Assembly: GCA_947623925.1 (NCBI GenBank)
Contig: CANQID010000005.1
Location: 1 to 51,159 of the forward strand
DNA: 51,159 nt
Source of the DNA: an uncultured Bacilli bacterium
GTDB taxonomy: Bacteria; Bacillota_I; Bacilli_A; RF39; UBA660
Direction of reading: 5' to 3'
This document shows, piece after piece, positions 2,838-39,662 of the stretch. A model generated the notes under the pieces. That model searched no databases. It was given only the letters and a program-made list of their open reading frames with translations, and was not told the origin of the DNA. Position 1 is the first letter of the stretch. Every line of letters begins with the position of its first letter. A program made the translations under genes and the position numbers.

Positions 2838-5657
2838 TTAAAGAACTCCTTTTAAAAACTGTCCTGTATAACTTTCTTTTACTTTGACTACTTCCTCAGG
2901 TGTGCCTTTGGCTATTATTTTTCCACCATCATCTCCACCTTCTGGACCTAAATCTATTATGTAATCTGCTACTTTTATAACATCTAAATTATGTTCAATA
3001 ACAACTACAGTATCACCATTATCTACAATCCTATTAAGAATAACAAGTAATTTTTTAATATCATGGCTGTGCAAACCTGTTGTAGGTTCATCTAGTATAA
3101 ATAAACTTTTTCCTGTTGGTTTTTTCTGTAATTCTTTTGCAAGTTTAACACGAGCGGCTTCTCCTCCTGATAAAGTAGGTGCACTTTGACCTAACTTAAC
3201 ATAAGAAAGTCCTACATCCATTAAAATTTTTAATTTATTTTTAACTTTAGGTATATTTTCAAAAAACTCATATGCTTCTTCTACTCTCAACTCTAAAACA
3301 TCATAAATACTTTTTCCTTTATATTTTATACTTAAAGTTTCTCTATTGTACCTTGTTCCACCACAAACTTCACATGGTACATAAACATCAGGTAAAAAAT
3401 GCATTTCTATTTTTTTAACACCATCACCCCAACATGCTTCACATCTACCACCTTTTACATTAAATGAAAATCTACTTTTATCATATCCTTTCATTTTTGC
3501 TTCTTTTGTTTGTGCGAAAACATCTCTTATATCATCAAATACTCCTGTATATGTTGCAGGATTACTTCTTGGTGTTCTTCCTATAGGTGCTTGAGAAATA
3601 TCTATAACTTTATCTACATTTTCAAGTCCAACTACTGATTTATAAATACCTGGTTTTTCTTTTACTTTGTATAAATTATTCGCTACTACTTTATATAGTA
3701 TTTCATTAACTAAACTACTTTTTCCACTTCCACTTACTCCTGTTACACATATAAATTTACCTAGTGGAAATTTAACATTTATATTTTTCAAATTATTTTC
3801 TTTTGCACCTTTTATTTCAATAAATTTACCATTGCCTTTTCTTCTTTTTGTAGGAACTTCTATTTTTTCTTTTCCTGTTAAATATTTAGCAGTTATACTA
3901 TTTTCACATTTCATTACTTCTTGTGGAGTTCCTTTTGCTACTACCTCACCACCATGAAGTCCTGCACCCGGTCCAATATCAACTAGATAATCACTTGCAA
4001 GCATAGTATCAGTATCATGTTCAACTACTATTAAAGTATTTCCTAAATCTCTCATTTCTAACATTGAATTTATAAGTCTTTGATTATCTCTTTGATGTAG
4101 TCCTATACTCGGTTCATCAAGTACATATAAAACTCCTGTTAATCTTGAACCTATTTGAGTTGCAAGTCTTATTCTTTGTGATTCACCACCAGATAAAGTT
4201 CCTGCACTACGAGCAAGTGTCAAATAAGAAAGTCCAACATTTTCTAAGAATGTTAATCTAGAATCAATTTCTTTAATTATCATTTCCGCTATTTGTTTTT
4301 GTTCTTTACTTAATTTTAAATTCATAATGAATTTGTGCAAATCAGAAATACTTAATAAAGTTACTTCATATATATTTTTTTTATTTATTAGTACTGATAA
4401 TACAGAATCATCTAGTCTAGCGCCTTTACATTTTGGACAAGTTGATTCTACCATGTATTGTTCTATCCATTCTCTTATCCATGTACTTTTAGTTTCCATA
4501 TATCTTCGTTCTAAATTAGTTATAATTCCCTCATAATAATCTTTACTTGTTCTTTTATTTCCGTTTTTAGATGTATAATTAAATTCTAATAAATCTTTAG
4601 AACCATATAAAATTATATCTAATTCTTTTCTGGATAAGTCTTTTACTTTTTTATTTAAATCTATATTATAAAATTTAGCAACTGTTGATATTTGTGTACT
4701 AATTATACTAGAGTCATCTTCTAAATTTATAGCGACTATTGCTCCTTCGTTTATGCTTAAGTCTTTATTAGGTATTATTAAATCTTCATCGATTGACAAT
4801 TTAATTCCAAGCCCTTTACATTCTGTACATGCTCCATAAGGTGCATTAAATGAAAACATTCTAGGCTCTAATTCTGGAAGTGAAAAATCACATTCTGGAC
4901 ATGCATAATTTTCACTCATAACTATTTGTTCTTTACCTACTACATCAACTACTACTTTCCCATGTGATAGTTTTGCTGCTGTTTCTATAGAATCATATAG
5001 TCTACTTCTTATTCCATCTTTTACTATAAGTCTATCGATTATAACTTCAATATTATGTTTTTTATTTTTATCAAGTTCTTTTACTTCTTCTATATCAAAT
5101 TCTTCACCATCTATTTTTAATCTAACATATCCATCTTTTTTTAGTTTTTCTATTGTATTTACATGTGTACCTTTCTCACCATATATTATTGGACTTAATA
5201 TTTTTATTTTTGTATTTTCTTCTAAGTTTAATATTTGGTCAGTCATTTCCTCATAACTTTGACTTGTTATTGGTTTATTATGTACTTTACAATATGGCAC
5301 ACCAATTCTTGCATATAAAAGTCTTAAGAAGTCATATATTTCAGTTACTGTTCCTACTGTACTTCTAGGATTTTTATTCGTTGTTTTTTGGTCTATACTG
5401 ATTGCAGGACTTAAACCTTCTATAGAGTCTACATTTGGTTTTTCTGTTCCACCTAAAAATTGTCTAGCATAATTACTTAAACTTTCTACATATCTTCTTT
5501 GACCTTCTGCATATATAGTATCAAAAGCAAGACTACTTTTTCCACTTCCACTTACTCCTGTCATTACTATTAATTTATTTTTTGGTAATTCTAAGTCTAT
5601 GTTTTTTAAATTGTTTTCTTTCGCACCTTTTATTATAATTTTATCCATAATCTTCAC
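2838..5657 (-). CDS. uvrA: excinuclease ABC subunit A
   Basis: two ABC ATPase modules (TGVSGSGKSSLAFDTIYAEGQRRYVESLS, LSGGESQRIRLA, LSGGEAARVKLAKEL), Zn-finger cysteines. Confidence 0.98.
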   Translation of the reverse strand: MKIMDKIIIKGAKENNLKNIDLELPKNKLIVMTGVSGSGKSSLAFDTIYAEGQRRYVESLSNYARQFLGGTEKPNVDSIEGLSPAISIDQKTTNKNPRSTVGTVTEIYDFLRLLYARIGVPYCKVHNKPITSQSYEEMTDQILNLEENTKIKILSPIIYGEKGTHVNTIEKLKKDGYVRLKIDGEEFDIEEVKELDKNKKHNIEVIIDRLIVKDGIRSRLYDSIETAAKLSHGKVVVDVVGKEQIVMSENYACPECDFSLPELEPRMFSFNAPYGACTECKGLGIKLSIDEDLIIPNKDLSINEGAIVAINLEDDSSIISTQISTVAKFYNIDLNKKVKDLSRKELDIILYGSKDLLEFNYTSKNGNKRTSKDYYEGIITNLERRYMETKSTWIREWIEQYMVESTCPKCKGARLDDSVLSVLINKKNIYEVTLLSISDLHKFIMNLKLSKEQKQIAEMIIKEIDSRLTFLENVGLSYLTLARSAGTLSGGESQRIRLATQIGSRLTGVLYVLDEPSIGLHQRDNQRLINSMLEMRDLGNTLIVVEHDTDTMLASDYLVDIGPGAGLHGGEVVAKGTPQEVMKCENSITAKYLTGKEKIEVPTKRRKGNGKFIEIKGAKENNLKNINVKFPLGKFICVTGVSGSGKSSLVNEILYKVVANNLYKVKEKPGIYKSVVGLENVDKVIDISQAPIGRTPRSNPATYTGVFDDIRDVFAQTKEAKMKGYDKSRFSFNVKGGRCEACWGDGVKKIEMHFLPDVYVPCEVCGGTRYNRETLSIKYKGKSIYDVLELRVEEAYEFFENIPKVKNKLKILMDVGLSYVKLGQSAPTLSGGEAARVKLAKELQKKPTGKSLFILDEPTTGLHSHDIKKLLVILNRIVDNGDTVVVIEHNLDVIKVADYIIDLGPEGGDDGGKIIAKGTPEEVVKVKESYTGQFLKGVL

Positions 5658-36642: not shown

Positions 36643-37773
36643 TTATGAACGTTTTTCTTGCGGAAAAACAACTGATGTTTTACTTGATACTGGCTTTCCA
36701 AATACTGGTATACTACCACTCCAATAAAAACTTTGAATTCTAACTTTCCTATTGCCCCAATTAGAAACATCACTAAGTTTTTCATATGCATGATATATAA
36801 TCCAATTAGTATTGTTTGGTCCCTTAACAAAACTAGCATGGCCAGGTCCATATACACCGTTTCCAGATTCGAATAGAGGTTTTGATGATTTTTTCCAAGA
36901 AGAAGGATTTAAAATGTTTCCATTATCTTTAAAAGATAACATTCCCAAACAATATGTACTTGTTCCCGCACCAGAAGCTGAATATATTATAAGCAATTGC
37001 CCGGTAGGTGATATCAAAACTTCAGGGCCTTCATTAATGTAACTTTTATTAGCTGTTTCCCAACTATAAGTTGGTGATGATATTTTTACTCTCTTTCCTG
37101 AAATTTTAGTAGGGCTACTCATAGGAGCAATATACAAATGCTGTATATATTCTCCCTTTTTTTCTAATCCAGACCATACAAAATACAATTTACCTTTCCA
37201 TTGTAATAAAGTTCCATCTATTGCATATTGATCTGTCGAATCAAACACCTTAACTGGTGCTTCATATTCTCCCATAGGATCATTTGTTTTTGATTTTAAA
37301 ACATACATTCTCCTCTTATAATCACCTGAATCACTTTTTTTATTATCAGGTGCAGCAAAATATATATACCAGTGGTTTTGATAATGATGCAATTCTGGAG
37401 CCCACAATGAAGCTTTATCTGATCTCTGATAAATCTTTTTACCACTCTTTTTCAAATTAGATAAAGTGTCAGTTTTATATATTGTTATACTATTACCAGT
37501 AGCTAAATAATAATAATAATTTCCATATCTTATTACCCATGGATCTGCTCCCTTTGTAACTGGATTTTTAAAACTTTTAACATTTTTACTTACACTGTTA
37601 CCCATTAAATTAAATAAATTGCCACCTGTAAATAACACATATGCTCCTCCACCTAAAGCAAGTACTCCTACTAAACATGCTGCTATGATTGCTATTTTTT
37701 TATTTCTTCTTTTTTTTAATGTTTCATTCGACGGGCGTCCAACTGAATTAACATTTTTTTTAAATAAACTCAT
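36643..37773 (-). CDS. membrane-anchored glycoside hydrolase family 43-like protein
   Basis: N-terminal VGRPSNETLKKRRNKK + TM; KGADPWVIRYGNYYYYLAT, LWAPELHHYQNHWYIYFAAP, AIDGTLL, NEGPEVL. Confidence 0.85.
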   Translation of the reverse strand: MSLFKKNVNSVGRPSNETLKKRRNKKIAIIAACLVGVLALGGGAYVLFTGGNLFNLMGNSVSKNVKSFKNPVTKGADPWVIRYGNYYYYLATGNSITIYKTDTLSNLKKSGKKIYQRSDKASLWAPELHHYQNHWYIYFAAPDNKKSDSGDYKRRMYVLKSKTNDPMGEYEAPVKVFDSTDQYAIDGTLLQWKGKLYFVWSGLEKKGEYIQHLYIAPMSSPTKISGKRVKISSPTYSWETANKSYINEGPEVLISPTGQLLIIYSASGAGTSTYCLGMLSFKDNGNILNPSSWKKSSKPLFESGNGVYGPGHASFVKGPNNTNWIIYHAYEKLSDVSNWGNRKVRIQSFYWSGSIPVFGKPVSSKTSVVFPQEKRS

Positions 37774-37800: not shown

Positions 37801-37829
37801 ATAATACATACAATTACTATTATTGTCAA
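37801..37829 (-). promoter_or_regulatory. sigma-A promoter of the GH43-like gene
   Basis: TTGACA-N17-TATTAT on the minus strand. Confidence 0.65.
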
Positions 37830-38086: not shown

Positions 38087-39463
38087 TTAGCTTTTGCTTA
38101 CATTCGTTAATACAACATACAACGTCATATTATTTTTTACAGTTATTTTTTCACCTGATTTGTAATCAACAACTGTTGAAGCAGATTTTTTTGAATAACC
38201 ACGTGCATTTTTACCTTTTGGTGCTTTTAAAATTTTTGGTAATGTTACTGTACAACCTTTGCTTTCTTCTCCTGCTGGAGTACAACTCATTCTAGTCTTA
38301 GTTCCCTCTAGTGTTGAACCTAATGCCTGAATAGTTACAGTATATGTAGAATTCTTTTTAACAATTGGATAATATGTAACATCCTTATATATTTTTATTT
38401 TATTATTTGTTAAAGCAACGTCTGCTTTTGTTGCACTCATACTTGTTGCAAATCCAACTGTTGAATAATATGTTGGTGTTTTTATAGTTGGTGCTTGAAC
38501 TTCACAAGTTAAAGCAGTATTGTAAAGAGTACAACTTTTACCACCCGTAAAACTTAATTTTACATTAGTTTTTGTGTTATTATAAAATTTTGCTGTTACG
38601 GTTTTTTTAGATATTACATAATAAGTTACATTTCTATTTATAGTTATATCTCCATTATTTACTGGTACTAAAACATTCTTATCAGTTGCATTTTTAATTT
38701 CTGAAAGTCCTAATACAGACCATCCATCACCTCTAGATATACTTGGCAATGTTACTTTACAACTTGTACCTACTGTTGTACAAGATAAAGTTGTTTTTCC
38801 TACACTTGCTCCATTTCCAACTAATGTTAATGTAAATGTATTTTTCTTATTATTTGTAACTGTAATTTCATTAGACCAACCAGTATATTCTTTTTTAGAG
38901 CCATTAACTATATATCCTCTTATTCTAACTTTCTTCGTGTTATTAAAGTCAATACTAAATGCATCTGTAACTGTCTTGCCTTTATTTCCACTTAATGGAT
39001 TAGGAACAGAAACTCCCCATTTACCATTTGAATAAATTTGATATTCAATACCTATTGTAACATCTGAAGGCAAAGTACCGTGTATAAATGTTGGTAATGA
39101 AATATTATAAGAAATTTTTCCATTAGAATCTCTTTTATGTTCACTAACATTTGCTTGATTTAATGCTGGTGTAAAATATTCTACACGCTTTGGTTTTGAT
39201 GTCTGACCATCTCCTCTTCTACAATAATCTCCCTGAAGTGTAGTATTTGATGGACATATATACATTGAAGTATATTTTGTGACACTGTTACCCATTAAAT
39301 TAAATAAATTGCCCCCTGTCAATAACACATATGCTCCTCCACCTAAAGCAAGTACACCTACTATGCATGCTGCTACGATTGCTATTTTCTTATTTCTCCT
39401 TTTTTTTAATGTTTCATTTGATGGTCTTCCTACTGGATTAACATCTTTCTGCAAAAAACTCAT
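38087..39463 (-). CDS. anchored extracellular protein with three Cys-pair repeats
   Basis: same N-terminal module as the 36643 ORF; repeats with CTTVGTSC, CTLYNTALTC, CTPAGEESKGC; SD taggaggag. Confidence 0.75.
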   Translation of the reverse strand: MSFLQKDVNPVGRPSNETLKKRRNKKIAIVAACIVGVLALGGGAYVLLTGGNLFNLMGNSVTKYTSMYICPSNTTLQGDYCRRGDGQTSKPKRVEYFTPALNQANVSEHKRDSNGKISYNISLPTFIHGTLPSDVTIGIEYQIYSNGKWGVSVPNPLSGNKGKTVTDAFSIDFNNTKKVRIRGYIVNGSKKEYTGWSNEITVTNNKKNTFTLTLVGNGASVGKTTLSCTTVGTSCKVTLPSISRGDGWSVLGLSEIKNATDKNVLVPVNNGDITINRNVTYYVISKKTVTAKFYNNTKTNVKLSFTGGKSCTLYNTALTCEVQAPTIKTPTYYSTVGFATSMSATKADVALTNNKIKIYKDVTYYPIVKKNSTYTVTIQALGSTLEGTKTRMSCTPAGEESKGCTVTLPKILKAPKGKNARGYSKKSASTVVDYKSGEKITVKNNMTLYVVLTNVSKS

Positions 39464-39492
39464 ATCTAACTCCTCCTATATTTACTATACCC

Positions 39493-39521
39493 AGTTTACA
39501 CCCCCCCCCCATAAAAGTCAA
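39493..39521 (-). promoter_or_regulatory. candidate phase-variable promoter with G10 in the spacer
   Basis: minus strand TTGACT-tttat-GGGGGGGGGG-tg-TAAACT, spacer exactly 17 nt. Confidence 0.65.
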
Positions 39522-39571
39522 GAAAAAAATTATCTTTTTTTTAGATTTTGTAAATATGTAAAAATATAAAA

Positions 39572-39600
39572 TTAACGTCACTCCTATAACGTGACGTTAA
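39572..39600 (-). terminator. intrinsic terminator of the PrsW-like gene
   Basis: ttaacgtcac tcctataac gtgacgttaa, perfect 10-bp stem; T-rich on the minus strand after the hairpin. Confidence 0.7.
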
Positions 39601-39662
39601 TCTTAGTAACTATATCTTTTATTAGTTCTTTTTAATTAATTTAACAAAAAATATAAAACACT

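Follow-up and report, generated by a model that had tools for sequence, protein, structure and literature searches.

The locus described here lies on the minus strand of the window, by which we mean the whole stretch of 51,159 nucleotides analysed, and comprises a putative promoter with a run of ten G's, the gene of a 458-aa protein downstream of it and a neighbouring GH43-domain gene with a promoter of ordinary type. The features, with the basis for each, are as follows.

36643..37773, minus strand: GH43-domain gene (domain match)
37801..37829, minus strand: ordinary promoter of the GH43 gene, TTGACA-N17-TATTAT, used for comparison with the poly-G promoter (sequence)
38087..39463, minus strand: gene of the 458-aa protein, a presumed surface protein (predicted membrane segment, sequence)
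39463, minus strand: ATG of the 458-aa protein gene (sequence)
39472..39477, minus strand: Shine-Dalgarno sequence AGGAGG (sequence)
39493..39498, minus strand: -10 hexamer TAAACT, a 4/6 match preceded by TG (sequence; the tract-TAAACT ending is also found in genus G098)
39501..39510, minus strand: G10 tract within the 17-nt spacer, 39499-39515 (sequence)
39516..39521, minus strand: -35 hexamer TTGACT (sequence; the TTGAC anchor also stands at five other G-tracts of the same genome)
~39567..39605, minus strand: terminator, a hairpin that separates the upstream PrsW-like gene from the poly-G promoter (folding)

The poly-G promoter and its gene

Read from 39521 to 39493, the minus strand gives TTGACT-TTTAT-G10-TG-TAAACT, followed just downstream by the Shine-Dalgarno sequence and the ATG of the 458-aa protein gene. 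The first-pass annotation had described a G10 tract filling most of a spacer of exactly 17 nt and had called it the only long G/C run of the window; both statements are borne out, and no other run of G or C in the window exceeds five. With the nucleotide pairs of the window as the model, about 0.0006 G-runs of at least ten would be expected per window, and 0.014 per whole 1.23-Mb genome. The hexamers match the consensus at 5/6 positions (-35) and 4/6 positions (-10), the latter as weak as had been noted, and the spacer of 17 is a near-functional spacing. Taken singly, a 9/12 match is ordinary (30 such sites were found as against 25.8 expected from shuffles), which is the one point in favour of an accidental G-run lying beside an accidental promoter-like match. 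Against this stand the rarity of the tract and the recurrence, described below, of the whole architecture, by which chance is refuted for the class of sites; for the window locus we hold it to be highly improbable. What makes the promoter assignment convincing, at the level of sequence, is the family of equivalent loci and not the 9/12 match by itself. The terminator that had been proposed to insulate the promoter is a real hairpin (stem ~39567-39605, 9-nt loop, -18 kcal/mol, z -5.5).

The 458-aa protein has a short positively charged tail at its N-terminus and a single membrane segment, the rest of the chain being rich in repeats; neither the protein nor its repeats matched a Pfam or NCBIfam family. 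Its sequence suggests a membrane-anchored product, and its surface exposure is presumed. Similar repeats are found again in long proteins encoded on contigs C36 and C7, and one of these proteins has a peptidase-like, HExxH-type end. The C36 example (G000, L036:1-2676, minus strand) is an 892-aa anchored protein with a C-terminal, peptidase-like domain containing HEMAHKWD, and its gene is adjoined by a second gene of the same kind. The gene next door to the 458-aa protein gene had been annotated as a GH43-like paralogue with an ordinary promoter free of the tract. The promoter (TTGACA-N17-TATTAT, 37829..37801) and the GH43 domain were recovered as described, and the two proteins do have in common an N-terminal anchor of 71 aa (77% identity); beyond the anchor nothing is shared, so paralogy over the whole gene is ruled out.

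Recurrence within the genome, the family and beyond

The 1.23-Mb genome holds seven G-runs of at least eight. Six of them, of 10-12 G, each lie between TTGAC and a -10-like hexamer that is followed by a Shine-Dalgarno sequence and a start codon, and these six stand before exported or membrane proteins; the seventh, of 8 G, lies inside a reading frame that looks acyltransferase-like by eye. The chance of finding TTGAC at that position in six of seven G-runs is about 3e-13. Whatever its status in the window, the tract is thus not unique at genome scale, six promoters carrying one. Three of the six precede proteins of at least 480 aa with a prepilin-type N-terminus (PF07963/TIGR02532, tested on one of them), and the others precede a secreted-looking protein (C15), a small membrane-anchored protein (C17) and the 458-aa protein. 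With the -10 elements assigned by reading, the six spacers measure 19, 19, 19 (CATAAT), 19 (TATACT), 17 (TATAAT) and 17 (TAAACT). We note that the prepilin-type proteins (L003:1547-3007 and its paralogues in L007 and L011) join this N-terminus to a very long remainder (480+ aa), and that a genome encodes several such proteins, each behind its own poly-G promoter; one of the genes starts directly after a PheT-like gene.

Across 147 genomes of the family, the pattern TTGAC-n-G8+ was found at 222 sites in 37 genomes, with up to 39 per genome (totals summed from a table), as compared to 9 sites for a reversed control pattern and a single match, with no -10 after it, for the poly-C version. A -10 element with 5-6 of 6 matches to TATAAT follows the tract directly or a few bases later at 116 of the 137 sites listed, and the tract-TAAACT ending of the window locus is seen in 10 of the 12 listed copies from G098, another genus of the family. 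The pattern also occurs in other families of the class (33 of 248 genomes overall). Among the listed matches in named genomes there are many uncultured Bacilli and Clostridia, some Saccharibacteria and Selenomonadaceae, and cultured species such as Blautia luti, Pumilibacter muris, Lactococcus hircilactis (DSM 28960) and Streptococcus henryi. In both promoter and gene, G135 of the family is similar to loci L288 and L316 of uncultured Bacilli, which suggests Bacilli as the class. In the phylum sample, the small-genome families f4 and f15 are almost free of the pattern, so genome reduction is not enough by itself to give rise to such tracts. Loss of mismatch repair was considered as a cause and rejected, as nearly all family members have mutS, the genome studied here included.

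Poly-G artefacts of two-colour sequencing chemistry, or of assembly, might be suspected given that a few matches extend into ends of low complexity (G071 C21, G098 C56) and that several tracts lie close to contig ends. Such an error would have no preference for one strand, or for TTGACA ahead of the tract and TATAAT behind it, nor would it recur in cultured isolates, and the window tract lies in the interior of a contig of 51 kb; we give this explanation almost no credence.

Reading frames downstream of the tracts start mostly 33-40 nt after them. A strongly hydrophobic stretch within the first 60 residues is predicted for 70 of 109 products after poly-G promoters versus 4 of 17 after ordinary promoters at the same loci (9 of 41 genes in the window as background), counts that are approximate because the frames were chosen by a simple rule. 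Judged from their sequences, poly-G promoters mostly precede pilin-like, membrane-anchored or secreted proteins.

In a separate observation, a repeated TTGTCTAC motif, in several cases ending TTGTCTACTTTnAGTTTACC, lies 35-80 bp upstream of 6 of 177 poly-G promoters from several genera (L007, L050, L060, L065, L082, L323) and resembles the end of an insertion element.

Tract length and spacer length

Within single genomes we grouped promoters with identical flanks (no difference in the bases preceding the tract or in the first 12 that follow it), and the number of G's differed in 14 of 22 groups, e.g., 10/11/13 in G014, 8/10/10 in G098 and 10/10/12 in G087. The comparison is between loci of one assembly, rather than within one locus over time, and assemblies report the commonest tract length only. 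Length differences between identical-flank copies are as slippage would produce, and they point to length change that is much faster than substitution. A near-identical pair of poly-G promoters, with G9 and G10, was also seen before neighbouring paralogous genes on an uncultured Bacilli contig (L293:1011-1041 and 4755-4786, minus strand).

Alternatively, the G-tract might be a fixed part of the promoter, a G-rich spacer that either is read by a regulator or acts on promoter strength by way of DNA shape, in which case variation in length would be incidental. The strict G orientation, poly-C being found in 1 of 147 genomes, is not required by slippage alone and would fit such a role, as would the longer spacers and the pilin class described below. 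Yet the tracts are nearly always pure and at least 8 G long (in eight genomes searched down to 5 G), while the neighbouring spacer bases and the -10 vary freely among sites; the number of G's differs between identical-flank copies; and interruptions, which a binding site should tolerate, are seldom seen. On balance we regard a fixed promoter part as unlikely. The interrupted tracts GGGGAGGGG, GGGGGTGGG and GGGGGAGGGGGGG do occur in otherwise similar promoters (G062 C13:10905-10935 and C14:557-587; G014 C35:8478-8523), the two in G062 having a 19-bp spacer, and are perhaps locked versions.

An exception to the variation in length, and a point against slippage, is the pilin class, which has G11 in 8 of 8 copies from two species (G000 L003, L007, L011; G002 L040, L042, L046, L048, L053). 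In this class a TGAC-N4-GTCA palindrome spans the -35, and the ATTATGCCC/GGGCATAAT inverted repeat around the promoter takes in the -10. This palindrome or inverted repeat is a possible operator or cruciform, and by their sequence these promoters may also be regulated by a DNA-binding protein.

Spacers were listed for three family genomes fully and for a fourth in part. Poly-G spacers there measure 18-21, with 25 of 41 at 19 and none of 41 at 17, whereas ordinary promoters of the same genomes, for which perfect hexamers were required and G content was left free, peak at 17 (47 of 106). The medians are 19 versus 17 (p ~3e-16 within 15-21, a value inflated by the related copies within the listing). 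We considered a general avoidance of 17-bp spacers and rejected it: the dip at 17 suggested by the wider collection came with a pattern demanding at least 9 G, and in a phylum sample with a minimum of 6 G spacers of 17, 18 and 19 were about equally frequent (8, 8 and 9 of 33). Longer spacers are accordingly claimed for the family only, not as a general rule, and the window locus, at 17, is unlike the family's poly-G mode of 19. Either the commonest assembled allele in the family is weaker than optimal, or the G-tract shifts the optimum.

A candidate surface switch and its known relatives

Homopolymers in promoters have precedents. In N. meningitidis, surface expression from porA is high with G11 between the -35 and -10, reduced with G10 and very low with G9 (PMC3639595). 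The likeness extends to a coding-strand poly-G tract of 9-11 G within the spacer and to a surface protein, with the graded expression having been measured for porA (PMC3639595); porA is, however, one locus in a Gram-negative pathogen, whereas the Bacillota here have many loci per genome and spacers often of 18-20. Treponema pallidum tp0126, an outer-membrane protein gene, has poly-G between its -35 and -10 (PMC7864442), in the same position as the window tract, although the phylum differs and the tract of tprL overlaps the -10 region and so works otherwise. The C-stretch of Bordetella fim2/fim3/fimX and that of Neisseria opc are likewise promoter homopolymers that alter transcription of surface structures (PMC1891110, PMC7864442), but these are poly-C, which is essentially absent here, and are not simple -35/-10 spacers. 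In Bifidobacterium breve, a gut commensal, G-tract slippage affects a pilus, and further G-tracts in promoter spacers are mentioned without detail (PMC9187656); the switch studied there is a frameshift inside the gene, and the phylum is again another.

By its tract position, hexamers, spacing and predicted membrane or exported product, the window locus resembles the porA type. The initial suggestion of a phase-variable promoter is supported by the recurrence of the architecture, the copy-to-copy length differences and the exported or membrane products, and the locus keeps its status as a candidate. The best reading of these sequences would place it in a large promoter family of uncultured Bacilli that extends to Clostridia and to a small number of cultured species. 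We consider it likely that the site is a porA-type phase-variable sigma-A promoter, in which the spacing set by slippage turns the 458-aa surface protein up, down or off. The G10 tract would set the distance between the -35 and -10, replication slippage would add or remove G's, and each such change would bring the spacer closer to the optimum or take it further off, cell by cell. By the logic of porA, expression would be best at G10 (spacer 17) and would fall with a gain or loss of 1-2 G. With at least six such promoters in this genome, the set of surface proteins on display might differ from cell to cell and be reversible, which could serve in evading immunity or phages, or in changing ligands. 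Promoter activity, slippage in living populations, the effect on expression and the benefit are what we infer from these comparisons. As for the strict orientation, one possibility, given what is generally known of sigma factors, is an extended -10 contact provided by the G's that immediately precede the -10, however long the tract.

Discussions of phase variation in gut bacteria mostly concern DNA inversion, and to our knowledge switches with poly-G spacers have been described from pathogens, singly or in small sets of loci. Our literature search, which left subscription papers and preprints mostly outside its reach, found nothing on RF39 and phase variation or on poly-G spacer promoters in gut Bacillota. 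The mechanism is already known from Neisseria and Treponema; what appears to be new is its scale and the clade, together with the strict orientation of the G's and the greater length of the spacers.

We tentatively speculate, with rather less confidence than for the single locus, that uncultured gut Bacilli and some Clostridia practise combinatorial surface switching with at most ~40 independent poly-G promoters per 1-1.5 Mb genome, fixed in G orientation, the family's alleles lying mostly 1-2 bp above 17 so that the usual state would be attenuated and one or two slippage steps would turn a promoter fully on. Cells carrying these promoters probably vary their surfaces at random, and a simple rule, TTGAC-n-G8+-TATAAT, would predict which surface genes switch, both in uncultured gut Bacilli and in the culturable species named above.
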